IMG/VR virus record: IMGVR_UViG_3300025168_000515
Span: 1-27,575 of that record
Length of the DNA: 27,575 nucleotides
Source of the DNA: a virus
Strand: one strand, 5' to 3'
Shown: piece after piece, positions 9,552 through 27,575 of the stretch
How positions within the stretch are numbered: the stretch's first letter is position 1
Layout: each line of letters starts with the position of its first letter
Position numbers and translations under genes: made by a program
Notes under the pieces: model-generated
Database searches by the model: none
Told to the model about the DNA's origin: nothing
Seen by the model: the letters and a program-made list of their open reading frames with translations, nothing else

Positions 9552-9578
9552 TTATAGTATGATATACGGAGAAACTAA

Positions 9579-12500
9579 ATGGCAGAACTAACTTTTAAAT
9601 CAGCAGGTGTAAGCACAAGAGAGATAGATCTTTCTGGCCCAACCCCTACTGGCCCTACAGGTGTACCAGCTGGAATTGTTGGCACGTCGGTTGAAGGGCC
9701 TGCTTTTGTACCACTTACATTTGCAAATTACGGAGAGTTTAAACTAGCATACGGTGCATCAGATGGATCTAAGTTTGGTCCAATTGCTGTAAATCAATGG
9801 CTAAAAAATGCTCAAGCAGTTACATATGTGAGAGTCTTAGGCGCAGGCGATGGAAAGAAAAGAAGCTCTGCTACAGGAAATGTTACAAATGCAGGGTTTG
9901 TAGCGGGTGCTTCTCAAGTTCAAGATAATGGAATAGTAGGAAACAACGTATATGCAAATGCAGGCGGAGATGGCCACGGAAGAGCGTATTTCCTAGGGTG
10001 TTTTATGTCTGAATCTGCAGGAAGCACAATTTTTTCTGATGCTGGTATTCAAAGCACAAATCAGACAAAAGTAAAGTCAGTCGCTGGATTCAAGGCTGTT
10101 GCACACTTAACAGGCGCGATTGTTGTAGAAAATACAACAGGTCTTAAAAGAGCATACCACTTTCACTCTGCTGCAAACGGAACTGCGGCACCAGCAACTA
10201 CTGCCCTTCCATCAGGTGTATTTATTAAAACAGACGGAGTTGCAGTTAATACAATTGCTTCTTCTTTTATATCACAGCTTGCAGATACCGACTCTCACTC
10301 AGGTACAATAACCGGTGGAACAAATGCGTCTTTAGCTCACTTCACTCAGTCGCTAGGTGGCATTTTTGGTAATACACTAATTTCTTATATTGACACAGGT
10401 GTGGCTGCATCAGCAGCAGCTAAAGTAACTTCACTAAGTAGAGATACACAGTTTAGATCAGGTTCAACAGCAGGCGGTGCAGTTCCTATTCTTAGAGGGG
10501 TCTTGCTTGCACCTAGTGGTGTAGTTCTTTCGCTTAGTGGAAATCTTGGAGGAACAAATACATCACCTGCTTCAACAGCAAATTCTTCAACAGTCAGAGG
10601 TTTTACTTCAGGTTCAATTAAGTTAACAGCAGGCGCACAAGATTTTGTACTCTTTATGAACGGTTATAAAGGTACAACTTCAAACCCAACTGCAATAACA
10701 GCTTCTTTCGATATGACTGCAAATAATTACTTTGCAAACGTCTTGAATACAGACCCTCTAAAAACTGAAGAAAAGGGTCACTTTCTTTATGGTTCATACG
10801 ATATTTATCCGACACTTGCAGTTGTAACAGGTGCAGACTCTGTTAGACCGGGCGCCTATTTGAAAGATGAAGAACCAGCTGCTATGATCCTTACTTCATC
10901 GCAAGCTAGAGTTGCAGCTGCAACAGGGGCACCTTCATCAACCGTTCCGGTTTATGAGTCTTTTGAAGATAGATTTAACTCAGCTAAATCTCCATACGTA
11001 ACTTCTCAAGGATTTGGTGCATCGCCTTATGACTTATTTAGAGTAAAAGCTCTTTCAGACGGAGCAGGGCTTTCAACAACATTTAAAGTTTCAATAGAAA
11101 ACATTGTCAAATCAAATTCAGATTCTGACCTTTACGGTACTTTTGATCTTCTTGTAAGAAAATTTGATGATACTGATGATGAACGTGTTGTTTTAGAGTC
11201 TTTTAGAGGGCTTTCTTTGGATCCTGGTTCTAGTAGATATGTTGCTAGGGCAATTGGAGATCAAGAAATACTTTTTAATTTTGACAATGACGCAGAATCT
11301 CAAAAAATTGTTGTTGACGGAACACACACTGTTAGATCAAGATATATTAGAGTTCAAATGTCTAATGCAATGAAAAAGAAAGAAGTACCTGATGAGGCAC
11401 TTCCTGTCGGGTTTAGAGGGCCCAACCACTTAGTTACATCTGGTTCTTTATTAAACTTTGTTCCTGTACCAGATTCAGTCAGTTCAGCTGCTATTCATAG
11501 AAGAATAATAGAACCTCCTTTCCCATACAGAATAAGTATTGCGCAAGGAACTGGGCTTAGCAAGCGTTCTGATGCAAATCTATACTGGGGTATGCAACCT
11601 AATAGAAGAGAAACAATTGCAACACCAAACGCAAACACTCCAATTGATGAGTCACTAAAGACATTTGTTAAGTACTTTCCAGACCATAGAAAAGATTCAA
11701 TTAATTTTTCTGTAGGTGGAAATGCAGGTGTGGCAGATCAAAATGGCACTGTGTTAGACAGCGACAGGTTTAACAATAACAGATTTTCATTAGAAAAAAT
11801 TCAAGTTAGAACTGGATCAAATACTTTTGCAGATCCGGAATACTGGCTTAGTGCATCTTATGTTAGGAATGGTGTAATAGCTGCAAACGCTACGAAGAAA
11901 ACAAGAGGCCTTACAGTAGATGACTTTGATATTGTAGGTAACAGAAAATATCTAAAATTTACACTGCCTCTTCAAGGCGGCTTTGACGGTGTAGATATTT
12001 TTAACAAAGACAAGCGTGACTTAACAAACAATGCTGCAAAGCGTGAAATAGATGATGAAACAAATCAAGGCGGCACAGCAGGATCAACAATTTCAGCTTA
12101 TAGAAAAGCTGTTGATATAATGGCTTCGACGTCAGACGTTGATATTCAGCTGCTTTCAGTTCCTGGAATAAGACACTCAGCTGTATCAGATTATGCAATT
12201 GATGCAATGGAAAATAGGTTTGATGCAATGTTGATTATGGACATTGAAGAAAGAGACCAGTTTAACACGGTTATTACTTCTTCAATTCAAAATCCACATG
12301 TTGCAAATACAGTTACGTCATTTAAGAATCGCGCACTCGACTCATCTTTTGCTGCTGCTTACTTTCCTGACGTGACAATTGAAGACCCGGATACAAGAGC
12401 GCTTGTTTCTGTGCCACCTTCAGTTGTTACAATTGGTGCTTACTCACTCAATGACAGAGTTGGTCATCCTTGGTTTGCGCCTGCAGGATTTACAAGAGGC

Positions 12501-12965
12501 GCTCTAAACACCGTAGAAAGTACAAACGTCAGCCTTAACAGGACAAACTTAGATGATCTTTATGATGCTGATATTAACCCTCTGGCGCAATATCCTGGAA
12601 GACCTCTTTCAATATGGGGCCAGAAGACACTACTTGCAGCAAACTCTGCGCTTGACAGAGTAAATGTTAGAAGGCTGTTAATTGATGTTCGTAGAAAAGT
12701 TCGAGGAGTTGCAAATACACTTCTCTTTGAACCTAACAGAACAGAAACACTTGATAGATTCTCAAACCTTGTTAATCCAATTTTGCAGTCTGTTCAAGAT
12801 GGTCAGGGTGTTGATAGATTCAAAGTAATTATTGATACAACTACTACAACACAGGCAGATGTTGAGAACAATACAATTAGAGGAAAGATCTTCCTTCAAC
12901 CTACAAGATCAATCGAATTCGTTGCACTAGACTTTGTTGTCACAAATGCTGGAACAACTATCTAG
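9579..12965 (+). CDS. 18: Tail sheath protein, T4 gp18-like (copy B, paralogue)
   Basis: Encodes 1128 residues, starting at ATG 9579 behind ACGGAGA. It shares with copy A the start (REIDLS), VPAGIVGTSVEGPAFVP, YVRVLGAG, the C-terminal HPWFAPAGFTRG (about residue 964), GQKTL, LDRVNVRR (about 1024) and the closing strands (PTRSIEFVALDFVVTNAGT). The middle differs strongly in sequence and length, with more Thr/Ser/Ala/Gly-rich blocks at about residues 90-330. Both copies keep the tube-contacting core and neither is disrupted, so both are probably made. They may co-assemble, occupy different parts of the tail, or one may carry host- or environment-facing decoration. Confidence 0.95.
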   Translation: MAELTFKSAGVSTREIDLSGPTPTGPTGVPAGIVGTSVEGPAFVPLTFANYGEFKLAYGASDGSKFGPIAVNQWLKNAQAVTYVRVLGAGDGKKRSSATGNVTNAGFVAGASQVQDNGIVGNNVYANAGGDGHGRAYFLGCFMSESAGSTIFSDAGIQSTNQTKVKSVAGFKAVAHLTGAIVVENTTGLKRAYHFHSAANGTAAPATTALPSGVFIKTDGVAVNTIASSFISQLADTDSHSGTITGGTNASLAHFTQSLGGIFGNTLISYIDTGVAASAAAKVTSLSRDTQFRSGSTAGGAVPILRGVLLAPSGVVLSLSGNLGGTNTSPASTANSSTVRGFTSGSIKLTAGAQDFVLFMNGYKGTTSNPTAITASFDMTANNYFANVLNTDPLKTEEKGHFLYGSYDIYPTLAVVTGADSVRPGAYLKDEEPAAMILTSSQARVAAATGAPSSTVPVYESFEDRFNSAKSPYVTSQGFGASPYDLFRVKALSDGAGLSTTFKVSIENIVKSNSDSDLYGTFDLLVRKFDDTDDERVVLESFRGLSLDPGSSRYVARAIGDQEILFNFDNDAESQKIVVDGTHTVRSRYIRVQMSNAMKKKEVPDEALPVGFRGPNHLVTSGSLLNFVPVPDSVSSAAIHRRIIEPPFPYRISIAQGTGLSKRSDANLYWGMQPNRRETIATPNANTPIDESLKTFVKYFPDHRKDSINFSVGGNAGVADQNGTVLDSDRFNNNRFSLEKIQVRTGSNTFADPEYWLSASYVRNGVIAANATKKTRGLTVDDFDIVGNRKYLKFTLPLQGGFDGVDIFNKDKRDLTNNAAKREIDDETNQGGTAGSTISAYRKAVDIMASTSDVDIQLLSVPGIRHSAVSDYAIDAMENRFDAMLIMDIEERDQFNTVITSSIQNPHVANTVTSFKNRALDSSFAAAYFPDVTIEDPDTRALVSVPPSVVTIGAYSLNDRVGHPWFAPAGFTRGALNTVESTNVSLNRTNLDDLYDADINPLAQYPGRPLSIWGQKTLLAANSALDRVNVRRLLIDVRRKVRGVANTLLFEPNRTETLDRFSNLVNPILQSVQDGQGVDRFKVIIDTTTTTQADVENNTIRGKIFLQPTRSIEFVALDFVVTNAGTTI

Positions 12966-14637: not shown

Positions 14638-16839
14638 ATGGCCATTGAGCAATCTGACATGGAAGCCTTAACCAAAGCAATTAGAGCTGGTATTTCTGCT
14701 GGCTTTAGAGATCATTTCAAAGATGGCCGGTCAGGTCAAAATTTAAATAGAACATCTGTTTCAACAGAGGCAGATCTCCCACCGCCTCCTCCGCCACCAG
14801 AAAGATCAGAGTCACTAAGTACAACAGTTGATCTGTCTTTTACTGCAGGATCAGGTGTAGGTGCCGAGCAAGGCACTGTTTTTTCTACTATTGAAAATGT
14901 TGGAAATGCATTAATTCAAGCAAATAAAGTAGTTTTTGATAATGCATATGAAAACCAAAACAATAGAATGTCAGTACTTTTTAGAGGCATGGTTCAGACG
15001 TATGGCGCCGGACTTAAAGATATATCTTCAGAAGCATTTAATACAAATGACTTTGCTAAAATATCAAACACATATGCAAAAAATCAGCTTGAAATATTTG
15101 GAGGTCTAAGAAACGAGTACTTCAAAGAAGGCAGTGAACTATTTCAAATTGTAGAAGGTGACTTTGCAGATCTAAACGCAGAATTTGAAGACTTTTCTAG
15201 AAAGCTTAGTAACACAAACATACAAGCAATGAAGAAAATTAATGCAGATGCTATGAAAGATGTTATTAAGTTTTCAAAAGCAACAGGTATTGAAGCAGAA
15301 GGTGTTGCAGAGCTTGTCAATTTGCAATTTGTTAAAACAGGTGAAACAAGTACAAAAATTTTAGACAATTTAGTTAATCATGCTCAAAAAATTGGAAATC
15401 AAGTAGGCATAGCAATGCAAGACTTGCTTGATGATACTACTCAGATAATTACAAATGTAGGATTTTTTACAAAAATTGGAGAAGGAGGCGCAACTAGATT
15501 GGCAGCGTCTTTAAGACAGGTAGGTTTGTCAATACCTAGTTTTGAGTCAATGACAGGTGCTTTTAGAACTTTTGAAGGTGCTTCAAATATAATGAATGAG
15601 CTTTCTGCAGGCTTTAATATTCAATTAGATTCTGTTGAAATGATGGCGCTTGCAAACGAAGACCCAGAAGAGTTTCAAAGAAGAATAAGAGAAGTAATAA
15701 CCAGCCAGGCAGGGGACTTTGAGTCAATGTCTGGTACACAGCAGCGATTATTAGCAAATACTCTTAAATTGCCAATGGCAGAAATGAAGACATTCATGAA
15801 CACCAATCTTCAAATGACTGACAGGGCAACAATGCAAGGAGAGTCTGCAAAAGCAGATGCAATGACACAGAGTGAAACAGCTGACGTAATGGCTCAGTCA
15901 ACAATAAAGTATGCAAAGTCTGCAGAAGAGCTTGCTACAGCAGTCAAAGATCAAAGATTCTTATCAATAGCCCCTCAAATTAACAAACATGCTGAGTCTG
16001 TGGCTGGATATGGTTCTGCTATTCAAGGTGTACTAAGCAATACTTCAGCTTTTGGAAAAGTTTTAGAAGAAATGTCAGTAGGAAGTTTTGAAGTATATAC
16101 AACAGCAGCAGAAACAGCTGTAGAAGGACAGTTAGCCGTCGTTAGTGCTGGTGTCAAAGCCGGAGAAGAATTACTAAACTCACTTGCTGACAATATAAAG
16201 TCAGGAGCCGATACTGTAGAAGGAGCCATGGAGGCTCTTAGGGAAGCAATTGCTGCTATGTTTAGTCCGAACTCGATGCCTAACATATACATGCCAGTCA
16301 AAGAAGGTACTGAGTTTATGATAGGGTATCTTGAAAAAGATGCTTCACCTAGAATAGCTAACGGTCTTACCGGAGGATACGAAGGGTTAGGAGAAAGTAC
16401 AACCGAGCATACAGGTGCGGAGTCTTTGCCAAAGTTTGCGAGAGCTTTAGGGCCAGGCCTTGAGTTTGTGACTAAAACAATTGAAGAAGCATCAGATGAA
16501 ATAGGAAATATGTACTTATCACCCGGAGGTGCTGAAATTCCTGAAGTTGAAGCGCCTAAAGCCAAAAGTGTTGCAGAATTACAAGAATCAATAGCTAAAG
16601 AGCTTAACAGACAAATTTCTGAAACTGCATTAAGTGCTTCAGAGAGATCGCTAGGTGTTGCTTCTGGTATTGATTTAGAGTCTTTAAAAACAGCCATAGT
16701 CAGTGCAATCAGTACAGGCCTAGAAAATGCTGACCAGACTTCTAATATTACACTTGAAATTGATAAAAAGAAGCTTGCAGAAGTAATGATGACTGCAAAA
16801 ACTTCAGATAGAAAATCATTTGCTTACGTTGTGACCTGA
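14638..16839 (+). CDS. 29: Probable tail length tape-measure protein (T4 gp29 position)
   Basis: Encodes 733 residues (T4 gp29 is 590). It starts at ATG 14638 behind AGGAG, whose first bases lie in a small hairpin (CCTAT 14615-14619 with ATAGG 14626-14630). The predicted structure is largely helical and rich in Ala, Glu, Lys and Ser with no clear membrane segment, as expected for a protein that runs through the growing tube and sets its length. An N-terminal amphipathic helix is followed by seven consecutive prolines (residues 48-54). The segment MMALANEDPEEFQRRIRE (about 337-354) is reminiscent of tape measures I recall from T4-like marine phages. Position directly after the tail-tube and chaperone genes is the strongest evidence; direct homology to gp29 is not shown. 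Confidence 0.75.
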   Translation: MAIEQSDMEALTKAIRAGISAGFRDHFKDGRSGQNLNRTSVSTEADLPPPPPPPERSESLSTTVDLSFTAGSGVGAEQGTVFSTIENVGNALIQANKVVFDNAYENQNNRMSVLFRGMVQTYGAGLKDISSEAFNTNDFAKISNTYAKNQLEIFGGLRNEYFKEGSELFQIVEGDFADLNAEFEDFSRKLSNTNIQAMKKINADAMKDVIKFSKATGIEAEGVAELVNLQFVKTGETSTKILDNLVNHAQKIGNQVGIAMQDLLDDTTQIITNVGFFTKIGEGGATRLAASLRQVGLSIPSFESMTGAFRTFEGASNIMNELSAGFNIQLDSVEMMALANEDPEEFQRRIREVITSQAGDFESMSGTQQRLLANTLKLPMAEMKTFMNTNLQMTDRATMQGESAKADAMTQSETADVMAQSTIKYAKSAEELATAVKDQRFLSIAPQINKHAESVAGYGSAIQGVLSNTSAFGKVLEEMSVGSFEVYTTAAETAVEGQLAVVSAGVKAGEELLNSLADNIKSGADTVEGAMEALREAIAAMFSPNSMPNIYMPVKEGTEFMIGYLEKDASPRIANGLTGGYEGLGESTTEHTGAESLPKFARALGPGLEFVTKTIEEASDEIGNMYLSPGGAEIPEVEAPKAKSVAELQESIAKELNRQISETALSASERSLGVASGIDLESLKTAIVSAISTGLENADQTSNITLEIDKKKLAEVMMTAKTSDRKSFAYVVT

Positions 16840-16847
16840 GAAGATAA

Positions 16848-17096
16848 ATGAAATACTACCAACAAATACTAGACGACCTTTGCAAACAAAAAGATATTTT
16901 TTGTGAAGGAATGTCAGAAGAAGAAATTAAAGAAATAGATACTTATTTAGAAGAAGTTGTAAAAGAAATGGCTTCTTTCTTAGAAAATGTTGATCATATT
17001 GCTGAGGATCCACAAAAAAGAAAACGTGCAGCAGAACTTTTTAAAAATGAAATTAAGGAACAAGGATGGCAAGAGAAACTTTCAAAGATTTCTTAA
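16848..17096 (+). CDS. Small acidic helical protein, unknown
   Basis: Encodes 82 residues, with ATG 16848 eight bases after the tape-measure stop and a weak GAGAAG upstream. It is rich in Glu and Lys, with an almost wholly helical pattern (EEEIKEIDTYLEEVVKEM) and one Cys pair (C12, C19). The last 31 bases overlap the start of the next gene, whose ribosome binding site (AAGGA at 17056-17060) lies within this ORF, so translation is likely coupled. Its place between tape measure and baseplate genes suggests a small assembly factor or tape-measure partner. I do not recognise the family. Confidence 0.7.
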   Translation: MKYYQQILDDLCKQKDIFCEGMSEEEIKEIDTYLEEVVKEMASFLENVDHIAEDPQKRKRAAELFKNEIKEQGWQEKLSKIS

Positions 17097-20000
17097 GAAA
17101 TGAATCCCTACCTGCTGGAAAAGAAAATCCAGAGGGCATGATCAGCTACACAGTTGATGGCATTGCAGCGTTTGGAGATTCGTCTGGTTTAGGTTTGGAA
17201 ACAAATACTGGCCAGCCGCTTGTAGGTTTTGATGCTGCAGACCCTGATTCTGGTTTAACCGGTAGATTTTTAGATCACATAGTTAGAGAAGAAAATAATT
17301 TTTACAACTTCAAGAGAGGAAATTCTGAAGTTAATGCTGGAAATAGAGGTGATCATTTACAAGATCAAGATAGCTTTTTAGCAGGACCTTCTGACCCTAA
17401 GGGTTTACCTTATGTACCTCAAGGCACAGTAGAAGATGGACTACTAGAAGAGTACAGTAATAGTAGAAACTTTGAAGACATAACTTCAAACAACCCTAAC
17501 ACAGTAAGCCTAGATTCAATAATAAGCAAGGTTGACGGAGCACCGCGTGGTCCTGGATCTGAAAATGGACCATTTAATCAAAGAAGAGGCGCAAATGAGT
17601 TGTTAAAAGACTTATATGTGTCGGAAGACGGAACAGGCCCTACTGACTTTGTAGTTAAAGCATCAGTTGAGTCTCTTAAAAGAAACAATAGATTTAACAT
17701 TGAAAACAATTATTTAGAAACCAATACTTTTCCTGCAAGATCAGATATAGATTCAAATATAAATATGACAATACCTGGCTATAGAGGCATAGATCAAGAT
17801 GGCGACGGCAGACGTGACGAAAGAATAGTTTCAAGTACTTCGCTAGATGACCTTAAAAACATTGGATCTTCATTGCTTCTCAGGGCGTCAGGATATGATA
17901 TAAAAACAAGCCCAGGAAAAGACTTAGAAGTTGTTGAATCAACATTGTCAAATATTGCGTCAGGAGATCTTGAAGAATCACTTTACACTCAAAAGAAAGT
18001 AATGTCCAGACTTCTTGCAATGAATGCTACAGGTTTTCCGGCGACTGATCCGCTAGGTGTTTCTGTAAGAGCAGGAACAGGCATTGACCTTGACTATTCA
18101 AACGAAGAGTCGAAAAACTCTAATTCTTTTGGGTCAACTTACAACGATGCTGTTAGATTTACTGACTATTCTAGAGCGCTAAGGATTAAAACTGCCTTTA
18201 GATTAGTCGCAGTAGTAAGTGCTGCTAAAATACTTTTTGAATCAATTACAGATGAGTTAAGCACAAAAGAAATTAAAAAAATAAAAGAAGACATAAAAAC
18301 CATAGCTAAGAAGACAGACAAGGTACAGGCAGGAAAGCTTATTTTAGGGCAAAGTAGAAATTCAACAAGGTTTGTTGCCAAAAACTACTTTATGAATAAT
18401 CTTCTGACAGTGACATCGTTTAACTACGAAGAGTGTTTTAATGAAGGGCTTTTTGCTTTGTTTGGTAATAAGTCTGGCGAAGATTTAACAAAAGACGCTT
18501 TAGACGCAAACTCTACTAGCAAAGGTGCAAGTGTTAGAAAACTAGATTTTTCTGACTCACCTGGTTTTTGGCACGCTGTTTCAAACTCAATTATGAATTC
18601 TTTAGATGGATTTTCTGGCAACTTAGAAAACATTGGCGCGCCAAATAATGGTGACACAGAATCTGAAAAAGCTGCTATATCAAGGCTGCTTAATGAAAAT
18701 GATAAAATTCTTAAGGTTGTAAATATTATTGCGATTATAGGTGAGAAAAGTCTTCATGCAAAAAATGCTGTTAAAAATGCAAAGCTAAAAAATATAGAAC
18801 TTACAAGAGATCCGGACGCTCTTCCAAACTTACCTGGTCATAGAGTTGGAAAGAGCAGAATAGGAAAACAACCAGGCTCTTCAAGTGCTATGAATCCATC
18901 AATGGGCAATGAAACAACACTCGCTTGGGAGCAGAGCAGTGTGCCTTCTATGTACTTGCTTCCAATGAATATTATTCGAGCTGCCCAGACTCTAAATAAC
19001 TCTTTCTCAGGCGAAAATCCTATGCATGGAATGCTAGGTAGTAGAATGGTTAGAAATACGTATACTGGGCTTGATACAGACGGGTCAGCTGCTAGAATAC
19101 CAGGGCGTGTAGCAAAGATTGTTGAAGATCGACTAGACGCTGAATATGTTCCTTTTTACTTTCATGATTTAAGAACAAATGAAATTGTATCTTTTCATGC
19201 ATTTTTATCACAGCTAACAGATACAATTAGCCCACAATATACTCAAACATCTGCATTTGGTCGAATGGATCCTGTTCAAACTTATCAGAGTACAACAAGA
19301 TCTCTAAGCGTAGGTTTTACTGTTTACGCAACAAACAGAGAAGACTTTGATGAAATGTGGTACAAGATTAACAAGCTTGTGACAATGTTGTATCCTCAGT
19401 GGACAGCAGGTACGCTTGTCCAAGGAAGCCGAGGTGATCTATTTGGAGACCCGCCTAGTTTTTACCAGCCTATGAGTCAAGTCATTGGTGCGTCGCCTCT
19501 AATACGTCTTCGAGTTGGAGATGTAATTAAATCAAACTATTCAAAATTTGGGTTAGCAAGAACTTTTGGAATAGGTGACACGGGGATAAACGCAAGAATA
19601 AATGAAAAAACTTCTGGTGCTTTGAGCGATCCAACGACAATTGGCGGCTCTATATTTTCTGAAATTGTTACAGTAGTCAGAGAAGCAGCAATAACAATTC
19701 TTGTAGGTGTGTTTGGCTCACCACAGGGTCTACTTCAGATGCTTTCAACTGACGCACAAGAAATAGAGTCTGTTATGGGTAGAGTTGCTGCCCTAGGGGC
19801 TACTGATGCTGCGGCATCCGCTCTTTCTGAAATTCTTGTAAACGGTTTTGCAAACCCTCTAATGACAGCACAAATTATCGATAATATGAAAGATCCCAAT
19901 GTTTCTGGCGAAGATAAAAATCTACCTAAAGCATTTAAATATTTAAATCCAAACTTTATAGATGGATACTTTTGTGAAGACGATGGAAAAACTTACTTTA

Positions 20001-20722
20001 CAACAAAGCGAGTAATAATAGATGTTTTAGAAACAGTAAAAGGTACAGATGACAAGTTTTACTTTAAAGCAGAAGTAAAAGACAAGACCGCAGGTGAGCT
20101 ATTTCAAAAGAAAATCTTAATTAGACATGAAGATATATTTAATAGCCCGACTAGAACATTTAGCACTTCTTTAGCAGGAATACTTTTTGGCATTGGATCT
20201 CTAGACGCAGCCGGGGCACTAAATCTTGCAGCCCGAGCAGTATTTGGTGGCGGTCAAGCAGGTGGAGCGCTGACAGGTACAGTTAATTTTGCAACAAGTT
20301 TCTTGTCGTTTCTAATAGAAAACCCAGAGACTGTATTTATGAGACCAGAAGTCAACCCTTTTGTTCGTGCATTTAAATCTACTCGAGGACGAGGACTGGC
20401 GGGTGTTATGAAAGGTATTAACTTTAACTGGCTTGAGGACAACATTCCTTGGGAAACTGACTTTAATGCTCGTGCACCAATTGGATGTAACATAAGCTTT
20501 CAGTTTGATGTCATACATGACTTACCACCCGGTCTTGATCACACTGGCTATAACAGAGCACCACTCTATAATGTTGGTGAAATAATGAGAAGCATATCAG
20601 GCGACCCTTACGAAGAAGTCATATCAGAATCAGAACTTAACTTTAGAAAAGCAGGTAATCGAGGCGTTTTCCTTGACGGTGAACAGTATAGAACTCAAGG
20701 CACAGAAAAAGGTAAGAAATAA
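17066..20722 (+). CDS. Large baseplate/tail-hub structural protein, unassigned family
   Basis: Encodes 1218 residues from ATG 17066. The N-terminal 300 residues are polar and Gly/Asn-rich and include a DQDGDGRRDE loop (residues 243-252) of the type that binds calcium. Residues about 400-600 are helical. Residues about 695-840 contain FHDLRTNEIVSFHAFLSQL, SAFGRMDPVQTYQSTTRSL, MWYKINKLVTMLYPQW and LIRLRVGDVIKSNY. This strand-helix pattern resembles tube-initiator or hub proteins of contractile tails (T4 gp48/gp54 position), though I cannot name the family. The C-terminal part carries another beta-rich module. The stop overlaps the next start (TAATG), tying it to the LysM protein. A baseplate or tube-initiation role is inferred from location and fold pattern. 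Confidence 0.7.
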   Translation: MARETFKDFLRNESLPAGKENPEGMISYTVDGIAAFGDSSGLGLETNTGQPLVGFDAADPDSGLTGRFLDHIVREENNFYNFKRGNSEVNAGNRGDHLQDQDSFLAGPSDPKGLPYVPQGTVEDGLLEEYSNSRNFEDITSNNPNTVSLDSIISKVDGAPRGPGSENGPFNQRRGANELLKDLYVSEDGTGPTDFVVKASVESLKRNNRFNIENNYLETNTFPARSDIDSNINMTIPGYRGIDQDGDGRRDERIVSSTSLDDLKNIGSSLLLRASGYDIKTSPGKDLEVVESTLSNIASGDLEESLYTQKKVMSRLLAMNATGFPATDPLGVSVRAGTGIDLDYSNEESKNSNSFGSTYNDAVRFTDYSRALRIKTAFRLVAVVSAAKILFESITDELSTKEIKKIKEDIKTIAKKTDKVQAGKLILGQSRNSTRFVAKNYFMNNLLTVTSFNYEECFNEGLFALFGNKSGEDLTKDALDANSTSKGASVRKLDFSDSPGFWHAVSNSIMNSLDGFSGNLENIGAPNNGDTESEKAAISRLLNENDKILKVVNIIAIIGEKSLHAKNAVKNAKLKNIELTRDPDALPNLPGHRVGKSRIGKQPGSSSAMNPSMGNETTLAWEQSSVPSMYLLPMNIIRAAQTLNNSFSGENPMHGMLGSRMVRNTYTGLDTDGSAARIPGRVAKIVEDRLDAEYVPFYFHDLRTNEIVSFHAFLSQLTDTISPQYTQTSAFGRMDPVQTYQSTTRSLSVGFTVYATNREDFDEMWYKINKLVTMLYPQWTAGTLVQGSRGDLFGDPPSFYQPMSQVIGASPLIRLRVGDVIKSNYSKFGLARTFGIGDTGINARINEKTSGALSDPTTIGGSIFSEIVTVVREAAITILVGVFGSPQGLLQMLSTDAQEIESVMGRVAALGATDAAASALSEILVNGFANPLMTAQIIDNMKDPNVSGEDKNLPKAFKYLNPNFIDGYFCEDDGKTYFTTKRVIIDVLETVKGTDDKFYFKAEVKDKTAGELFQKKILIRHEDIFNSPTRTFSTSLAGILFGIGSLDAAGALNLAARAVFGGGQAGGALTGTVNFATSFLSFLIENPETVFMRPEVNPFVRAFKSTRGRGLAGVMKGINFNWLEDNIPWETDFNARAPIGCNISFQFDVIHDLPPGLDHTGYNRAPLYNVGEIMRSISGDPYEEVISESELNFRKAGNRGVFLDGEQYRTQGTEKGKK

Positions 20723-21012
20723 TGGGTATATCTAGATATAATTTTGTTAAAAGAATTCCAGGTGGAATCTCAATTAGCAGCGCTAGTTTTGTAATATTTA
20801 ATGCTGTTTCTAGAGGCATAATTTCTACAAACAACATTGTAATGGACGAAGGTAGAAGATTAGACCAAATAGCAGGAGAACAATACGGCGATGCCGGGTA
20901 CTGGTGGGTTATTGCAGCTGCAAGTGGGATTGGATGGGGTCTTCAAGTTCCGCCTGGAACACTTGTAAAGGTTCCAAATTCTTTAGATAAAGTAATAGGA
21001 TTGCTGATATGA
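20722..21012 (+). CDS. LysM-like baseplate protein (gp53 / gpX type)
   Basis: Encodes 96 residues, starting in a TAATG overlap with the upstream stop. Residues about 50-90 read RRLDQIAGEQYGDAGYWWVI, then GWGLQVPPGTLVKVP. This is a LysM-like module in the phage tail variant, with D-x-I-A at the start, the YGD...YWWVIA helix and the PPGTLVKVP strand. Such small proteins (P2 gpX, the LysM domain of T4 gp53) sit at the tube-baseplate junction. The N-terminal half is a beta-rich adaptor. The stop overlaps the hub gene start (ATGA), so the three proteins are probably translated in fixed ratio. Whether it binds peptidoglycan or only has a structural role is not clear from sequence. Confidence 0.8.
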   Translation: MGISRYNFVKRIPGGISISSASFVIFNAVSRGIISTNNIVMDEGRRLDQIAGEQYGDAGYWWVIAAASGIGWGLQVPPGTLVKVPNSLDKVIGLLI

Positions 21013-24000
21013 GTAACAGTTCTGATCTTAGAAACTATAACGTTGCTTTTGAAATATTTCTTGATGCAATTGATCAATACAGCAAGTTTGTTACCGGACT
21101 AGACAGCGGTCTTTTTAGAAGGTACGACTTAGAGCAAACGCAAAAATTTCCTGATCAAGAAGATGAAGAATCAAAAAAGCTTTTAACAAGTATTTTAGAC
21201 AGGACTGTTGGTGCTCATTCTTTTCTTGGAATGGAAACAGTATTAGAAAAGATAGCGGTGACAGACAGACGCGATTTTATTCTAAGCTGTTATTCTTTTG
21301 GCACAGGAGATATCAAGCACAATCAGACTTTTGAAAATGAATCTTTGAGAGCGTCTGGCACCTTGGAACCAGAAGATTCTTTGATCTCAATTTATGACGT
21401 AGTTAATACCAACTTTAAAAAGATCGATCCCAAGCTAACTGCACTACCTGAAGATTTTATAAATCAAGCTACAAGCCCTAGCGAAGTTCATCGATTTGAA
21501 AAACCTACACTTTCTGCCCATGTTATTAGAAAGTCTCAATACAGTCCTACAAACAGACAAGCAAGACATTTACCTATCTTTTTAAATGCAATTAGTGACA
21601 TTGAGATGTCAAGGTGTACTCCCTACTTAGATGTAAAATTCATTCACTCGAGAAATTTGGCCGCAGGTCTAGACATTATTGCAAATCCAAAAATGTCGTA
21701 CACGAGGCTTTTTAGGTTTGCAGCAAATGATACTTTTGATAATACAACTCCTTTAAATAGTAACTTAACAGATGCAAGTGAAATCGGACTAGATAGTTTT
21801 TCTTATATGAATCTTTTTACTTCACCACAAACAATGGTCAATGCTGATATTAATTCAAGTAACAACTCTTTTTCTAATATTACAGCATTTTCAGGAGAAG
21901 ACGAAGATGAAAGACCTACTTCTAAAAATGTACTAGATCCTTTTCAACCTTTACTTTCTTTAATATCGTTTGATGTAACAGAATCAGGTGGTGGCAAAGA
22001 AGGTTTTATGTCTAGCAAGCGTGCTTCTTTAAAAATTAAACTACATGACAAATCTAGAATGGCTGATATATCTCCTCTGATAGCAGTTAACGAATTTGCA
22101 TTTACAGATTTTTCTATAGAGTTTGGATGGTCACACCCAGACAGCAAGCTGACTTCTGATAATACTATCGGTAAATACATTAACAACCTTAGAAGCATCA
22201 ATACCTACGATCTAATAAGTTCCAGCTACAGTTTTGGAAAAGATAATACTGTAGATATTACCCTTGAGTTGGTAACGAAAGGTGCAAGTCACATTATACC
22301 ACTTGTATCAGCGTATAGCGGATATTATCAAAACATTGGTGTTTTTAAGGGTGTTATAAATGCTGCTATCGGTGTAATGGAAGGTCCTAGCGGAGAAAAA
22401 AATATTAGAAAAAGAAGAGATTTATTACCAAAAGTAAGACAGCGGCAAACAAAGTTGTCTTCGCTTAGTAGATTAACACCTTTTGAAAACTTAAAAAAAA
22501 TCAAAGCGATGGTAGATCAAATAGACGCTTCTAATATTACCAAAGACATAGAAGAATTTTATAAAGATTTAAAAACTTTGCTTAACGAAGGCGCTCAAGA
22601 TACAAGCGGAGAAACCATAGATCCAGGCATAAGTGATAAAGTTACTGGATTTTTTGCGTCGCCAGGTGATGTTTTTGAATCAAAGTGGGCAAGTTTAGAT
22701 AACACCCCAGATCCTTTTGCATATGCTTCCAGGTTTGAAGACGTTCAAACTTCGGCTTTCTGGCGAGGTGAAAGTAAAACACCTCATGATTCTTTTAGTA
22801 CTTTTTATAGTAATCCACAAATGCCTCATGTTACTCTCGGAAAGTTAATTACAAAATTTGTTGCATTTCCTCTTTCTACTTGTGGTATCTATGACGAAGT
22901 TCAAGTTTACTTTTATCCTGTTAATCACCACGCTGCTGGTGCAAGAAGGCATACAACAGCCAGCTTACCAATAGATCAAAACTTGCTTAAAGAGCAAATA
23001 GATAAAAAAATATCAAGTATTGACTCAAATGAAAATCCAAATGCAGGGCTTGCTGTTAATGGGTTTATTGCACTATGTCAAAACATTCTGAGAAGAAAAG
23101 AAATTTCTGCTTATGGTTTGCAAGAAACAGGCGGCACACATACAGGTTTTCCTGCTGATAATATTAAAAAAGGATTTTTAGAATCATCTCATGAAGAAAA
23201 AATTGAATTTTTAACCTCACTAGAAGCAGCCGCGCCTAGCTCTCCAACTGGTGCAATTGAAGATGAATTATGGCAGTATAAATATACACCTACACCTGGC
23301 GCAAGTCCTGAGGTGGTGTCAGAAGAAGAGCAAGAAGCAATTAATAAATTTTTAAAAGGAATTGAAGAACTAGGCGTTCAAAGTTTAGCAAATAAATTAA
23401 GTAGCATATACGGACCGGGCCGCGCAGCCGGTGAAGCTAGCGATGACGGAGTATCTTTGCTTGCAAGAGGAACTACATTTCAGCCAATTGATTTACAAGT
23501 ATTTTTTGAAGTGACACCTATCGTTGATGAAGCTGCAATTGGAGAGTCTGTTGCTTTGGACTCTTTTTCTAAAATACTTAAAAGTATTAAAGGAGAAGAC
23601 ATTTTAGATATTGACGGGCTTCTAACAGACAAGGTGCTTTTAAGAATACATATATTTGATAGCAATACTCTATCAAATTCAGATCCAGCTGTGTTGGGGC
23701 TAGATACAAACGAAGACGGCGCAATTATTGAAGGGTCTGAAACTGACTCTGCAACTTCAGAACTGATGGAAGAAGCTAGAAAAAATAAAAACAACTTTGA
23801 CTTTTGGAAGTCAATACTAAATTCTAAGTTTCCAACAATTACACATGGCCAGTCTAGTAGTGTTATTAAGAGTATTGATATTAATTCAAATATACCCAGC
23901 AACATATTAGATATGTACATAGTCGATTCATACGAACAAAGAATTGGAAAACAGACAGCCGAGGAGGCTGAAAATCAATGGGATGAAGCGACATTTTTTC

Positions 24001-24239
24001 CTTCAAATGTTTCTATTCAAATGATGGGAAACCCAATGATTAACAGAGGCACTGTTTTCTTTGTTGACTTTATGACAAAGACCAATTTGGACAATTTATA
24101 TGCGACCAATCAGGTTACTCATACCATCGCTCCTGGTAATTTTACAACAACATTAAGTTGTCTTCCATACGGTCAAGGAAGAGTTTCAGCAGCAAGAAAT
24201 AATATGCTTAAGAAGATAGATGATCTTGCAAAAAGCTAA
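21009..24239 (+). CDS. Large baseplate central hub-like protein (gp27/gpD-like C-terminus)
   Basis: Encodes 1076 residues from ATG 21009, overlapping the LysM gene by four bases. Residues about 315-440 contain ISFDVTESGGGKEGFMSSKR, SIEFGWSHPD and DLISSSYSFG. The C-terminal 90 residues contain PSNVSIQMMGNPMINRGTVF, FVDFMTKTNLDNLYATNQV and THTIAPGNFTTTLSC. Together these resemble the beta-barrel hub domains of T4 gp27 and P2 gpD, whose C-terminal sections carry similar binding-strand patterns before the spike attachment. An EF-hand-like loop DTNEDGAII is at about residue 899. It is much longer than gp27 (391), with large insertions. No lysozyme or spike domain is seen. The hub role is inferred from C-terminal pattern plus the adjacent LysM gene. 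Confidence 0.65.
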   Translation: MSNSSDLRNYNVAFEIFLDAIDQYSKFVTGLDSGLFRRYDLEQTQKFPDQEDEESKKLLTSILDRTVGAHSFLGMETVLEKIAVTDRRDFILSCYSFGTGDIKHNQTFENESLRASGTLEPEDSLISIYDVVNTNFKKIDPKLTALPEDFINQATSPSEVHRFEKPTLSAHVIRKSQYSPTNRQARHLPIFLNAISDIEMSRCTPYLDVKFIHSRNLAAGLDIIANPKMSYTRLFRFAANDTFDNTTPLNSNLTDASEIGLDSFSYMNLFTSPQTMVNADINSSNNSFSNITAFSGEDEDERPTSKNVLDPFQPLLSLISFDVTESGGGKEGFMSSKRASLKIKLHDKSRMADISPLIAVNEFAFTDFSIEFGWSHPDSKLTSDNTIGKYINNLRSINTYDLISSSYSFGKDNTVDITLELVTKGASHIIPLVSAYSGYYQNIGVFKGVINAAIGVMEGPSGEKNIRKRRDLLPKVRQRQTKLSSLSRLTPFENLKKIKAMVDQIDASNITKDIEEFYKDLKTLLNEGAQDTSGETIDPGISDKVTGFFASPGDVFESKWASLDNTPDPFAYASRFEDVQTSAFWRGESKTPHDSFSTFYSNPQMPHVTLGKLITKFVAFPLSTCGIYDEVQVYFYPVNHHAAGARRHTTASLPIDQNLLKEQIDKKISSIDSNENPNAGLAVNGFIALCQNILRRKEISAYGLQETGGTHTGFPADNIKKGFLESSHEEKIEFLTSLEAAAPSSPTGAIEDELWQYKYTPTPGASPEVVSEEEQEAINKFLKGIEELGVQSLANKLSSIYGPGRAAGEASDDGVSLLARGTTFQPIDLQVFFEVTPIVDEAAIGESVALDSFSKILKSIKGEDILDIDGLLTDKVLLRIHIFDSNTLSNSDPAVLGLDTNEDGAIIEGSETDSATSELMEEARKNKNNFDFWKSILNSKFPTITHGQSSSVIKSIDINSNIPSNILDMYIVDSYEQRIGKQTAEEAENQWDEATFFPSNVSIQMMGNPMINRGTVFFVDFMTKTNLDNLYATNQVTHTIAPGNFTTTLSCLPYGQGRVSAARNNMLKKIDDLAKS

Positions 24240-24275
24240 TTTAAAACAAGCATGTAAAATAGAAAATATTAACGC

Positions 24276-24281
24276 TATACT
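24276..24281 (+). promoter_or_regulatory. Candidate -10 box TATACT immediately before the polymerase-like gene
   Basis: TATACT ends six bases before ATG 24288, so initiation at the usual distance would place the first transcribed base at or next to the start codon. No ribosome binding site is visible there. The upstream -35 region (TGTAAA around 24253) is poor. A leaderless transcript is possible but unproved. Confidence 0.25.
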
Positions 24282-24287
24282 TTCTTT

Positions 24288-25367
24288 ATGCTTCAAAAGA
24301 ACTACAAAAAGAAAAGTATAGGTACACTACAAATAAATTCAGAGTTTACTAGATCTGGTAAAAATAAGATTGTAAAAATATCAAATTCTGATGATGTTTT
24401 GTCTATTAGAAATATTAATAAGTTTAGATCTTTATCTAATCTAGAAACAATCAAAGACTATAGAGGATATTTTTATAACTTTTCTAGAGATCTTAATATC
24501 ATTAATACAGATGTCAGATGGGATCTATTATTAGGTAATGGTATTTGTGACAAATATGACAAAGATCTTTTAAATAAAATTAAATTTTCTATTGATAAAA
24601 TTACTTCATATCATACTAATATTCTTAATAGAAGAAAGACACTATACGAAAATCTAAACAAGATTCTGGATGAGTCAGGTAATGAAATTGAAGTTCCGGA
24701 ATATTCACATGATGGAGTGACAGGCAGAACTACAATTAAAAAAGGTTTTAACTTTTTAACTTCTAAAAAAGAGTTTAGAAAAAAATGCAAATCTAAAAAT
24801 AAAGATAATATGCTGGTCAGTATTGACTTTAAGGCATGCGAGCCTAATCTATACTTAAGATCTTTGGGCATAGAAATATCAGACCCTGATATATACGAAT
24901 TTTTATCTAGTAAGCTTAATTTAGATGTAAAAGATAGAAGTACTTTAAAGAGAGGAATACTGTCAGTTTTGTATGGAGCGTCTGACAGCACTTCAAGTAA
25001 ATTACTAGGAAGTAAAAAACAAAATCTAGACAAGATAAAAAAATTCTTTAAAATCAAAGAGGTAGAAGAAGAACTAAAGGCCCAGTTTCAGAATACAAAT
25101 ACAATTTACAACTTATACGGGAGACCAATACACTCAGACAAAAGCATTCTTAACAAGTGGATTCAATCATCAGCAGTAGATTTTTGTAGTTTAGCATTTT
25201 TAAATTTTGTGGAGGAATTTAATTTAAATGTTTGCTACTTAGTTCATGACGATATGGTTGTAGATATTAGTAAAGAAGAATATGAAAAAATAAAAGACAT
25301 AACCGAGCTTTATGAACCTGACGCAAAATTAAGCCTTCCCGTAGAAATTACTATTCTAAACGCCTAA
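24288..25367 (+). CDS. Compact family-A polymerase-like protein without exonuclease domain
   Basis: Encodes 359 residues. The family-A polymerase motifs occur in order with correct internal spacing: TGR (145-147); motif A IDFKACEPNLYLR with D180 and E185 (equivalent to E. coli Pol I D705 and E710); motif B R217-x3-K221-x7-Y229-G230 (Pol I R754, K758, Y766-G767); LYGRPI (276-281); N289-x3-Q293 (Pol I N845, Q849); and motif C V-H320-D321-D322. Catalytic aspartates are present. The motif B Phe762 position is Leu, and the ILS there resembles the VMT of T7-type RNA polymerases, but the retained motif A Glu favours dNTP use. The 150-residue N-terminus is too short for an exonuclease. It lies among late structural genes and lacks a ribosome binding site. 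It could be a primase-like, repair or virion-associated enzyme; the function is unknown. Confidence 0.85.
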   Translation: MLQKNYKKKSIGTLQINSEFTRSGKNKIVKISNSDDVLSIRNINKFRSLSNLETIKDYRGYFYNFSRDLNIINTDVRWDLLLGNGICDKYDKDLLNKIKFSIDKITSYHTNILNRRKTLYENLNKILDESGNEIEVPEYSHDGVTGRTTIKKGFNFLTSKKEFRKKCKSKNKDNMLVSIDFKACEPNLYLRSLGIEISDPDIYEFLSSKLNLDVKDRSTLKRGILSVLYGASDSTSSKLLGSKKQNLDKIKKFFKIKEVEEELKAQFQNTNTIYNLYGRPIHSDKSILNKWIQSSAVDFCSLAFLNFVEEFNLNVCYLVHDDMVVDISKEEYEKIKDITELYEPDAKLSLPVEITILNA

Positions 25368-25375
25368 GTAATCTT

Positions 25376-26887
25376 ATGGCAAATAAAAAAATAAAATCAG
25401 AATCTTACGGTACACAACGTCAAACTTGGGCCGGAGGCGCAGGTGCTGGAAGCAACTTCCAGCACGGAAAAGACTTAGGTACACACACAAGAGGTAGTCT
25501 AGGTACAAGAGGCGCAGACTCAAACTGGAGCAGGGCTAGTCAAGCTGTTATGCCTTTAAATGCTTTTACACATTTTTTAGATGAAGACGAAGACGAAGAG
25601 TTTGATGAAGGCTACACTGTTGAAGACTCAAAATATGATCTTCAAGAAATTCTTCGATTGAACGAAGATTTAAGTGATGTAGGTGCTGCCGCTGTAGACA
25701 TAGCAACAGACTTAGGCGGTGACTTTGCTGCATCTGCAATTTCTGGATTAGATGTTACAAGAACAGTTGGGACAGGCACTAGTTTACTGTTTATTACTAA
25801 AAATATTTATGAAATTAAAAAAGGTCGCGAAAGAGCAGATGAAGTTATTCGCCAGTTTTTAAACAGGCCAACGAACGAAGCTGCAGAAAAAATGGCAGAC
25901 ATATTTGATTCACTTATAACAGATGTCATTGACCTTTTTCAAAGAACAATAGAGATAATACCTGATAGTTTGCCTATAGAAGAGTTTGGCTCAATAGCAA
26001 TTTCTATAGCCCAGAATTACAAGCGCGCAGCTAAATTTTTAAAGGCTTATTTTACGTTTAGAAAGGTAGATTCTATCACAGCTGTCGGCAAAAAATTTAC
26101 AGCTAAGTCTGTGCGAAGAGTCTCTTTTTACGGAATTGTGTCACCCATTATTAAGATGGTAATGAAGTTATTTAACTCTGACTTTGTTCCTGAAAAAGTC
26201 GAAGAAAACAAGTCTATAATCATGGGTACAATCTCAAGAATTGTATTGCTAGGCGATTTAATGGAAGACTACCATATTCAAAAAGAAGTAGCTATAGGTA
26301 TCGGAATACCAGAAGAAGATTTTGTTTACAGACACAGAATTTTACAGCCGGGTTCAGAAGCTGATGGTTACGATTATGAGTCACCAAGAAATGAACTTCC
26401 TTTTGAAGATAGAGTAGAAGAAGAAATAGAAATTAGAAGAGAAGAAATGGAACAAAGACAACCAGAGTATTCAGAAGGACTATTTGGACCTGACGCAGAT
26501 GATGATCTTTCTGAACCTGTTGTCGTTGGTGGCGCAGCAGCTGGCGCCGCATCTCAAAATTCTACACTTGGAAACGAATTCTTAAGAAAACTTTTCATAT
26601 CAAAACCTGGAGACGAAGGTCTTTTTAGAGAGTCTTTAGAAAATAAATCTTTACTTTACTTAATAGAAGAAAAAGATTCAGAGTTAGATGAAGAACTAGA
26701 AGAAGATGAAATAAACGAATTCTCAGGCGCCGGAGGCGGAGCTATAGGAACACTACCGCTAGGTATGTCGACAAAAGGCCCAAAGGGAAAAACCAGCGCG
26801 ACATCAGGTGGCACCGCGTTCCCTTACAGTAAGAAAAGTAGAACTGCTTTTAAGAAGTACGCTAAGAAGTCATTTGGCGGAAAATAA
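25376..26887 (+). CDS. Putative virion-associated protein with acidic, helical and basic segments
   Basis: Encodes 503 residues, eight bases after the polymerase-like gene, with no clear ribosome binding site, so translation is probably coupled. Segments in order are a Gly/Ser/Arg-rich N-terminus (1-60), an acidic patch (DEDEDEEFDE, about 69-78), Ala/Gly-rich and hydrophobic helices (about 100-145 and 195-265) that could touch membranes, a long acidic helical part (about 340-365), an EFSGAGGGAIGTLPLGM motif (from about 448) and a Lys-rich C-terminal tail. I recall EFSGAG...PLG motifs near the ends of other marine phage proteins. No enzyme signature is seen. The pattern suits an internal virion or ejected protein, but that is inference. 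Confidence 0.75.
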   Translation: MANKKIKSESYGTQRQTWAGGAGAGSNFQHGKDLGTHTRGSLGTRGADSNWSRASQAVMPLNAFTHFLDEDEDEEFDEGYTVEDSKYDLQEILRLNEDLSDVGAAAVDIATDLGGDFAASAISGLDVTRTVGTGTSLLFITKNIYEIKKGRERADEVIRQFLNRPTNEAAEKMADIFDSLITDVIDLFQRTIEIIPDSLPIEEFGSIAISIAQNYKRAAKFLKAYFTFRKVDSITAVGKKFTAKSVRRVSFYGIVSPIIKMVMKLFNSDFVPEKVEENKSIIMGTISRIVLLGDLMEDYHIQKEVAIGIGIPEEDFVYRHRILQPGSEADGYDYESPRNELPFEDRVEEEIEIRREEMEQRQPEYSEGLFGPDADDDLSEPVVVGGAAAGAASQNSTLGNEFLRKLFISKPGDEGLFRESLENKSLLYLIEEKDSELDEELEEDEINEFSGAGGGAIGTLPLGMSTKGPKGKTSATSGGTAFPYSKKSRTAFKKYAKKSFGGK

Positions 26888-26907
26888 AATTATTTGACAA
26901 TAATTTT
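26886..26907 (+). terminator. AT-only hairpin after the 503-aa gene, weak terminator candidate
   Basis: AAAATTATT (26886-26894) pairs perfectly with AATAATTTT (26899-26907) around TGAC. It overlaps the TAA stop of the upstream gene and ends in four T, just before the -35 region of the gene 32 promoter. The stem has no G-C pair, so termination would be weak. Confidence 0.35.
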
Positions 26908-26934
26908 GTAAACAATCCTCTCCTTTTGTATAAT
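26906..26934 (+). promoter_or_regulatory. Sigma70-like promoter of gene 32
   Basis: A perfect TATAAT (26929-26934) is preceded at 17 bases by TTGTAA (26906-26911, four of six consensus). Transcription would begin near 26941, giving a leader of about 54 bases. It is the only good host-type promoter seen in the window, consistent with a replication gene expressed earlier than the structural genes. A TTGACA at 26894-26899 is too far from the -10 box to act as the -35. Confidence 0.65.
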
Positions 26935-26953
26935 GTTTAAGCAATTAAAACAT
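26933..26953 (+). promoter_or_regulatory. Second copy of the dyad ATGTTTAAG-N6-AAACAT, at the gene 32 start site
   Basis: Arms ATGTTT and AAACAT are separated by nine bases and extend to seven pairs with A26932 and T26954. The element overlaps the end of the -10 box and the predicted transcription start, a classical operator position. The other copy is at 6388-6408. Confidence 0.4.
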
Positions 26954-26985
26954 TGCACATTAAATATTGCACATTAAATTTTAAA
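26945..26985 (+). promoter_or_regulatory. TTAAA-rich leader of gene 32, candidate autogenous translational operator
   Basis: Four TTAAA elements occur at 26945-26949, 26960-26964, 26974-26978 and 26981-26985, running into the AGGAG ribosome binding site. In T4, gp32 represses its own translation by binding cooperatively to an unstructured leader rich in UUAAA next to a 5' pseudoknot. The arrangement here matches the unstructured part. The operator role is inferred by analogy. Confidence 0.5.
26952..26979 (+). repeat. Perfect 14-base tandem repeat (two copies)
   Basis: ATTGCACATTAAAT occurs at 26952-26965 and again at 26966-26979, lying entirely in the gene 32 leader. It doubles the TTAAA elements and also an ATTGC that is complementary to GCAAT at 26941-26945. 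Confidence 0.9.
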
Positions 26986-26994
26986 GGAGAAAAA

Positions 26995-27575
26995 ATGGCA
27001 ATCGATTTCGACGCAATTAAACGTAAACTAGAAAGACTTAGCGGCGCAGACAAGAGTCGCAACTCAAAATGGAAACCTGAAGAAGGTGAAGAACATACTG
27101 TCCGACTTATCTCATTCCCGGATAATGACGGTCAACCCTTTAAGGAAGTACAGTGGTACTACAACATTCCGGGTTCTCGAGGTATGGTAGCACCTTACCA
27201 GTTTGGCAAAAAAGATCCTGTTCAGGAACTAATTAGCAAGCTTCGCGATGAGGGTTCAAAAGAATCCTACGAGATGGCAAAAAATCTCTACCCTAATATG
27301 CGCACCTATGCTGCTGTAGTAGTACGTGGTCAAGAAGATGAAGGAGTGAAGATTTGGGGCTTTGGAAAGACTGTTTATCAAAAGCTTCTTTCTATTATGT
27401 TAGATGAAGACTACGGTGATATTACTGATCCTCTCGAAGGTCGCGATATTAAGGTTGTTTGTACTAAGCCTCCTGGTAAAAAGTACGCAATGACTGATGT
27501 AATGCCTCGCGGCAAGGTTACTAAGCTTTCTACTAAGTCAAAACAAGCTTCTGAGTGGTTAGAAAATATTCCAAA
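26995..27575 (+). CDS. 32: Single-stranded DNA-binding protein, T4 gp32-like (N-terminal 193 codons; cut by window end)
   Basis: The frame runs from ATG 26995, with AGGAG upstream, to the window edge without a stop. gp32 coats single-stranded DNA at the replication fork and in recombination. The N-terminal basic helix (FDAIKRKLERLSG) corresponds to the cooperativity domain. The core includes NLYPNMRTYAAVVVRGQEDE, then GVKIWGFGKTVYQKLLSIM and LEGRDIKVV, matching the OB-fold region of T4 gp32 (ANILVVKDP, KVFKYRFGKKIWDKI, WEGANFVLKV). The zinc-binding subdomain expected near residues 55-80 has no Cys; the only Cys visible is C156. Arginine codons are nine CGN to one AGA, unlike the AGA-rich structural genes. 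The acidic C-terminal domain lies outside the window. Confidence 0.93.
   Translation, partial: MAIDFDAIKRKLERLSGADKSRNSKWKPEEGEEHTVRLISFPDNDGQPFKEVQWYYNIPGSRGMVAPYQFGKKDPVQELISKLRDEGSKESYEMAKNLYPNMRTYAAVVVRGQEDEGVKIWGFGKTVYQKLLSIMLDEDYGDITDPLEGRDIKVVCTKPPGKKYAMTDVMPRGKVTKLSTKSKQASEWLENIP

Follow-up and report, generated by a model that had tools for sequence, protein, structure and literature searches.

Near the right-hand end of the window (the whole 27,575-nucleotide stretch of viral DNA analyzed here, positions 1 to 27,575 of IMG/VR record IMGVR_UViG_3300025168_000515), a short polymerase gene, designated mini-PolA below, is preceded by a promoter-like element and lies between two large genes, the second of which is followed by the start of a gene for a gp32-like single-stranded DNA binding protein (SSB) (Table 1). 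As judged by sequence comparison and structure prediction, mini-PolA is a real, conserved, minimal family-A polymerase.

Table 1. Features of the mini-PolA locus, in window coordinates (residue numbers refer to the mini-PolA protein)
Feature	Coordinates	Strand	Basis or remark
1,076-aa protein directly 5' of mini-PolA, a conserved neighbor ("hub" is a working label)	21009..24239	+	no significant PHROG match
Promoter-like element TGTAAA - 17 nt - TATACT, ending 6 nt ahead of the ATG	24253..24281	+	pattern; near-leaderless mRNA predicted
Mini family-A DNA polymerase (mini-PolA), 359 aa plus stop	24288..25367	+	ORF, motifs, Pfam/PHROG, model, alignment
mini-PolA layout: N-terminal part, short thumb, palm and fingers	24288..25367	+	
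mini-PolA motifs: TGR 145-147; motif A D180/E185; motif B R217-K221-L225-Y229-G230; N289/Q293; motif C H320-D321-D322			
503-aa protein directly 3' of mini-PolA	25376..26887	+	no Pfam match, no significant PHROG match
gp32-like SSB, start only, cut by the window end	26995..27575	+	ATG; upstream TTG at 26953 possible

Sequence and predicted structure of mini-PolA

The window protein matches Pfam family DNA_pol_A (PF00476) with an E value of 4.2e-9 (36.2 bits, against a cut-off of 34.3) and PHROG_17, "DNA polymerase," with 1.1e-7, and a profile of 57 family sequences reaches a solved Pol I at 9.2e-16. The profile searches therefore place the protein in family A and not in an unrelated family. 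Among related records, PF00476 exceeds its cut-off in 4 of 9 in one set and in 7 of 19 in another, the remainder matching below the cut-off; one of those 7 records, that of phage immuto, additionally has a full-length PolA.

Every motif residue named in the original prediction is found at its predicted position (Table 1). In an alignment of 57 sequences, Y139, G146, R147, D180, E185, P186, D201, Y203, R217, K221, G230, Q293, D298, and D321 are invariant, Y229 and H320 are each kept in 56 sequences, N289 is kept in 44, and D322 is kept in 6. Position 225 is Leu in 48 sequences and Ile in 9. The residue at the position of Klenow His734 is Tyr in all 57, and that at the position of Glu883 is Ala in 32, Ser in 17, Asp in 6, and Gly in 2. 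E185, the motif A Glu that had been singled out as a DNA polymerase trait, is retained throughout, and we take it to occupy the position of Klenow E710, the ribonucleotide gate. We likewise assume that position 225 corresponds to Phe762 of Klenow, the numbering of which we also apply to His734 and Glu883.

A fused FEN-like 5'-3' nuclease domain, a trait of PolA1, the Pol I ortholog, is absent from mini-PolA: the protein has only 359 residues and no Pfam match to such a domain, and a separate gene encodes the nuclease. As for the 3'-5' exonuclease domain, also a trait of PolA1, a Pfam search of the window protein found no match to an exonuclease family. In the structural model, about 83 residues, including three short strands and a helix, precede the thumb helices, and this stretch is possibly the remnant of an exonuclease domain.

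The model, predicted from the 57-row alignment with a mean pLDDT of 95.1 and a pTM of 0.91, supersedes an earlier one from a 10-row alignment whose N terminus was poor (pLDDT 69.6). It contains the palm-fingers-thumb fold. VIA-align gave Z scores of 20.2 against T7 DNA polymerase (258 residues, 3.2 Å), 20.1 against Bst (263 residues, 3.1 Å), 19.8 each against Pol theta and Pol nu, and 19.5 against Klenow (264 residues, 3.1 Å); Taq is also within the range of 18 to 20, and the top scores are tied. The best match in Foldseek is Bst, with an E value of 1.4e-10, a TM score of 0.51, and an rmsd of 16.6 across the whole alignment, values which indicate that the parts of the model superpose better than the whole. 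At the sequence level, motifs A and C of the family profile line up with their counterparts in Aquifex Pol I. Pfam, PHROG, and the predicted fold thus agree with the proposal of a minimal family-A DNA polymerase with no recognizable exonuclease domain.

The original prediction had also seen in motif B a leaning toward T7-type RNA polymerases. T7 RNA polymerase and the N4 virion RNA polymerase belong to the same palm superfamily as mini-PolA. By eye, motif B looks like its counterpart in T7 RNA polymerase, and a stretch of 25 residues around it can be aligned, but with a score that is not significant. When five proteins were compared with the family profile, E. coli Pol I gave an E value of 2.3e-12, T7 DNA polymerase 0.0031, and T7 RNA polymerase 11. 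The 50 fold matches listed by VIA-align are all DNA polymerases, with no T7-type RNA polymerase among them. The proposed leaning has no profile support in this comparison, and the motif A Glu in all 57 sequences opposes it.

Gene order and promoter-like element

Contig L001 is identical to window positions 15211 to 27575 over 12,365 bases (100%) and thus derives from the same virus or from one indistinguishable from it in this region. Beyond the 503-aa gene, L001 carries genes for the gp32-like SSB, RecA, a 5' nuclease, and a DnaB-type helicase, followed by what appears by eye to be a ribonucleotide reductase gene. The respective Pfam E values are 4.2e-11 for SSB, 9.3e-65 for RecA, 5.7e-26 for the 5' nuclease (5_3_exonuc_N), and 4.9e-20 for the helicase. 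Among 49 of the cassette 5' nucleases, the motif EADD is found in 45 and GDxSD in 46, and three stricter patterns are found in 23, 36, and 36.

The conservation of this order was counted in 91 contigs, grouped into 66 clusters at 90% mini-PolA identity with the virus of the window included. The reference phages, and loci that repeated the same contig, were set aside, and each denominator reflects the clusters with flanks of the required length. The neighbor profiles were built from few seed genes, and L005, L033, L034, and the hub-like gene of the window match by construction. The hub-like gene is found upstream of mini-PolA in 58 of 60 clusters. Downstream, SSB is found in 50/51, RecA in 47/48, the 5' nuclease in 43/45, and the helicase in 41/42, and the four follow in the order SSB-RecA-5' nuclease-helicase in 41 of the 42 testable clusters. 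Between the hub-like gene and the earliest possible mini-PolA start codon, the distance ranges from an overlap of 29 bases to a gap of 105 bases in 56 of 58 cases, the other two being 895 and 1,674 bases. The exceptions to the gene order are L055, whose flank is without the hub-like gene, SSB, RecA, and 5' nuclease; L104, whose flank is without a 5' nuclease or helicase; and L120, without a hub-like gene. Additional genes occur between mini-PolA and SSB in two contigs. L034 (positions 9091 to 11293) encodes proteins of 200 and 523 aa, neither of which matches a PHROG and the latter of which contains, by eye, a ligase-like EKISGQN stretch, while L033 (positions 1962 to 2555) encodes a 197-aa phosphohydrolase-like protein.

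A pattern of TG(TAAA/AACA), 13 to 18 nt, and TAnnn(A/T/G) was searched for ahead of the genes and compared with shuffled sequence. Of 60 relatives, 27 have it before mini-PolA (shuffled mean, 2.8; maximum, 7), a count that is partly circular as the pattern was written from mini-PolA upstream regions. The counts for other genes are independent of this: 19/58 before RecA (shuffled mean, 1.5; maximum, 5), 10/63 before SSB (2.8 and 5), and background levels before the hub-like gene (1/52), a gp53-like gene (1/52), the 5' nuclease (1/52), and the helicase (0/50). The -10-like box lies only 4 to 6 nt from the start codon in 22 of the 27 mini-PolA cases, and a nearly leaderless mRNA is therefore predicted. 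In G005, a related genome contig of 137,660 bases, a related pattern is found at 6 of 145 ORF starts, including those of mini-PolA and DnaE (shuffled mean, 0.65; maximum, 3). The DnaE upstream regions of 11 other records include 3 that match the pattern, and several others display, by eye, a related TGTAAT...TATAAT with an AGGAG leader.

The original prediction placed the polymerase within the late structural region, flanked by the baseplate hub and a putative virion protein. The description of the two neighbors fits the window itself, but its last 581 bases already belong to the next gene, that for the gp32-like SSB. Mini-PolA lies at the junction with the SSB-RecA-5' nuclease-helicase cassette, has a promoter-like element of its own, and is not a stray of the late region.

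Elsewhere in the window, two tandem tail-sheath-like genes (positions 6435 to 9551 and 9579 to 12965; 1,038 and 1,128 aa) have starts that are alike by eye. Pfam sheath families match the first weakly, with scores below the cut-off, and tail-sheath-like neighbors in G005 are, by eye, similar to those of the window. Otherwise different proteins, including those at window positions 1688 to 2587 and 2611 to 3270, share a start resembling MKITRRQLRQIIxE. A simple pattern of this kind is found in 10 of 146 G005 ORFs, a raw count without a chance control, and this shared start could be a sorting or packaging tag.

Relatives of mini-PolA and the polymerases that accompany it

Searches of IMG/VR with the single sequence returned 9 relatives, one of them the same virus. 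Alignments of 9 and 10 rows returned 11 and 30 relatives, respectively, and an alignment of 22 rows returned 176, of which the best 80 were used. A tblastn search of 50,697 phage records found no relative with the window protein and none with the diverged member L054, and a pattern scan of genome contigs gave 23 pattern matches with 0 confirmed relatives. In one relative (L045, positions 7959 to 8723), the mini-PolA frame ends early, at 254 aa, while similarity runs on to position 9016, a frameshift or an assembly error.

Among the 57 members, 55 match PHROG_17, 32 match PHROG_15971, 30 match PHROG_2573, and 9 match the unannotated PHROG_4756; for P0002 and immuto gp001, a search at an E value of 0.01 found no PHROG. 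BFVD contains short viral models of 313, 342, and 394 aa, one of which is marked as a fragment. The wider family is partly in GenBank already under the name "DNA polymerase family A" (immuto). A literature search, outside whose scope lies the directly relevant study of Czernecki (2023), returned no description of the mini-PolA family or its cassette in the text available to it, and the available portions of PMC6302109, PMC9069017, PMC8775771, PMC7139368, PMC7077304, and PMC12926913 contain no description of the family.

A careful tree was built from 70 palm sequences, with two long-branched references omitted. In it, 56 environmental mini-PolA proteins fall on one side of a branch (100/98), and those of immuto, Mel-JY01, and LR756508 form another branch (100/100). 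The split between both groups together and 11 full-length enzymes has a bootstrap value of 98 and an SH-aLRT value of 75. Neither this tree nor a quick tree included crAss cr106_1 or L003. The tree favors a single origin for the environmental and immuto-type proteins, with modest likelihood support. In the immuto/Mel-JY01/LR756508 branch, His is aligned with E185 and Tyr with both R217 and H320, and the same catalysis may therefore not hold across the whole range of the cassette.

The original prediction had expected a T4-like phage that replicates with gp43, a family-B polymerase. The genome to which the window belongs is incomplete, and we examined related contigs. G005, which carries a 68% identical mini-PolA, has a gene for a DnaE of 1,179 aa in which PHP, alpha, finger, and HHH domains are present, and no PolB match or other PolA match was found in it. 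Among 13 related IMG/VR contigs of at least 100 kb, 9 encode DnaE and none encodes PolB (PF00136) or a second PolA; the other four of the 13, G011, G015, G024, and G027, have no family-B or family-C polymerase and no second PolA, and they may be incomplete. DnaE is likewise encoded in the shorter contigs G012, G013, and G031. A gp43-type replicase was thus rejected for these related contigs. In GenBank records the cassette is accompanied by PolB (the cultured phage Mel-JY01), by a separate 777-aa PolA (immuto, also cultured), or by a DnaE-like ORF together with PolB pieces (the uncultured LR756508). The presence of DnaE, PolB, or a full-length PolA beside the cassette indicates that mini-PolA is a companion of different replicases. 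Judging from these gene contents, it is most likely a helper polymerase in phages that have some other replicase.

In Mel-JY01 (PP395634.1), the gene in the place of the 5' nuclease (positions 55792 to 56832) is annotated "DNA polymerase I," and the short polymerase-like gene (positions 50397 to 51623) is annotated "hypothetical." The G005 phage has a tmRNA gene with the tag ANNNLHFEQRLAA (L019, positions 7866 to 8199) and, by eye, GroEL-like and sigma-factor-like ORFs.

Proposed function and comparison with known systems

Our results demonstrate the predicted fold of mini-PolA, its conserved catalytic residues, its gene order, and its coexistence with a different replicase. The explanation that we consider rather more probable than its competitors taken together is a split Pol I, in which mini-PolA would serve as an accessory gap-filling polymerase for lagging-strand and recombination intermediates, together with a separate 5' nuclease. 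Mini-PolA would be a primer-extending DNA polymerase cut down to the polymerase part of Pol I, and the genome would be copied by another polymerase (DnaE in the group of the window). The 5' nuclease would take RNA primers or flaps off Okazaki fragments, mini-PolA would fill the resulting gaps as well as those arising when recombination intermediates are resolved, and a ligase would then close the nicks. The 5' nuclease and the polymerase of Pol I would thus be two separate phage genes. We infer for mini-PolA catalytic activity, the use of dNTPs, joint action with the 5' nuclease, and a role on the lagging strand. The specialized repair or end-filling polymerase suggested in the original prediction is close to this role. 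According to the available part of a 2026 NAR survey (PMC12926913), a solo 5'-3' nuclease is retained almost always in bacteria that have no Pol I, in keeping with a functional separation of the two parts of Pol I. An ATP-dependent ligase was found in 4 of 16 records and an NAD-dependent ligase over the cut-off in 0 of 16 (Mel-JY01 has a weak match), so that the full Okazaki set was not found in G005 and most other records.

The main rival is a polymerase dedicated to recombination and repair, which would extend 3' ends in RecA-made D-loops or in double-strand-break repair, in the manner of Pol theta and Pol nu, and would not take part in Okazaki maturation. In its favor are the very constant RecA and SSB genes downstream and the high structural scores of Pol theta and Pol nu, which are in the top group of matches. 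However, the 5' nuclease and DnaB helicase genes are about equally constant, and, as Bst, Taq, and T7 DNA polymerase score level with Pol theta and Pol nu, the fold does not single out the repair enzymes; we regard this reading as unlikely, if still worth serious consideration. Decidedly improbable is a translesion polymerase, error-prone because it is exonuclease-free, that would pass lesions that stop DnaE. A short protein that coexists with a replicase and has no recognizable exonuclease domain speaks for this idea, but the near-constant tie to the replication cassette speaks against it, as does the Leu or Ile at position 225: Taq with Leu at the equivalent of site 762 is slower but more accurate according to the available text of PMC9069017.

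Two further alternatives appear highly improbable. Mini-PolA could be a degenerate, non-catalytic structural partner in the replisome, as the replacement of the usual E, R, and H in the immuto-type branch might suggest, but the window's own branch keeps both catalytic Asp residues, the motif B Arg and Lys, and the Gln in 57 of 57 sequences, down to about 20% identity. Alternatively, a primer-making, RNA-polymerase-like, or virion-packaged enzyme, for which the by-eye likeness of motif B and the virion genes on the left speak, is opposed by the profile comparison (though there T7 DNA polymerase itself scored poorly), by the motif A Glu and Q293 in all 57 sequences, by the DNA polymerases that make up the listed fold matches, and by the promoter-like element and the cassette, which link mini-PolA to replication genes; no support was found for the priming role and no evidence for the N4-style packaging that had been raised for this gene.

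Returning to the split Pol I, we tentatively propose a broader picture, one that we hold to be possible but rather doubtful. The SSB-RecA-nuclease-helicase cassette of a broad lineage of large environmental phages would keep a split Pol I as a constant helper, while the replicase would be exchanged among families A, B, and C. Mini-PolA, expressed from its own near-leaderless promoter, would rank among the smallest naturally occurring family-A DNA polymerases dedicated to replication. This suggests that phage replication modules may center on an accessory polymerase that stays constant while the replicase is interchangeable. Phages that carry mini-PolA would be misread in surveys that treat phage PolA as the replicative polymerase. 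Mini-PolA offers biochemistry a natural minimal, exonuclease-free family-A enzyme, and the cultured phage immuto makes its role testable.

Among known systems, mini-PolA has the fold (Z score, 19.5) and motifs in common with bacterial Pol I, that is, with the polymerase domain of Klenow, but is without the fused 5' nuclease and without a recognizable 3'-5' exonuclease domain, and it has Leu or Ile in place of Phe762, Tyr in place of His734, and Ala, Ser, Asp, or Gly in place of Glu883. T7 RNA polymerase has a motif B that is alike by eye, but profile kinship with mini-PolA is unsupported; the motif A Glu and Q293 are as in DNA polymerases. The families PHROG_15971 (376 positions) and PHROG_2573 (336 positions) comprise short phage polymerases of similar profile length and may already include part of the mini-PolA family or a sister group. 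The nearest full-length relative in the quick tree, and the best scoring of five proteins against the family profile, is the PolA of Roseobacter phage CRP-235, which has 701 aa compared with the 359 aa of mini-PolA and is encoded near primase and helicase genes. The Leu762 PolA groups of marine virioplankton (Nasko 2018, PMC6302109; Keown 2022, PMC9069017) share the Leu at position 762, but, as far as the available parts of these papers describe them, they are large enzymes (expected sizes of about 64 to 75 kDa; PMC9069017) beside RecB-, SNF2-, and UvrD-like helicases (PMC6302109), whereas mini-PolA has 359 aa and lies beside SSB-RecA-5' nuclease-DnaB. The closest parallels in arrangement are gp001 of Flavobacterium phage immuto (YP_010114413.1; 441 aa; "DNA polymerase family A") and WWT39333.1 of Microcystis phage Mel-JY01 (408 aa; "hypothetical protein"), each of which is, like the window protein, a short PolA encoded ahead of SSB-RecA-5' nuclease-DnaB.
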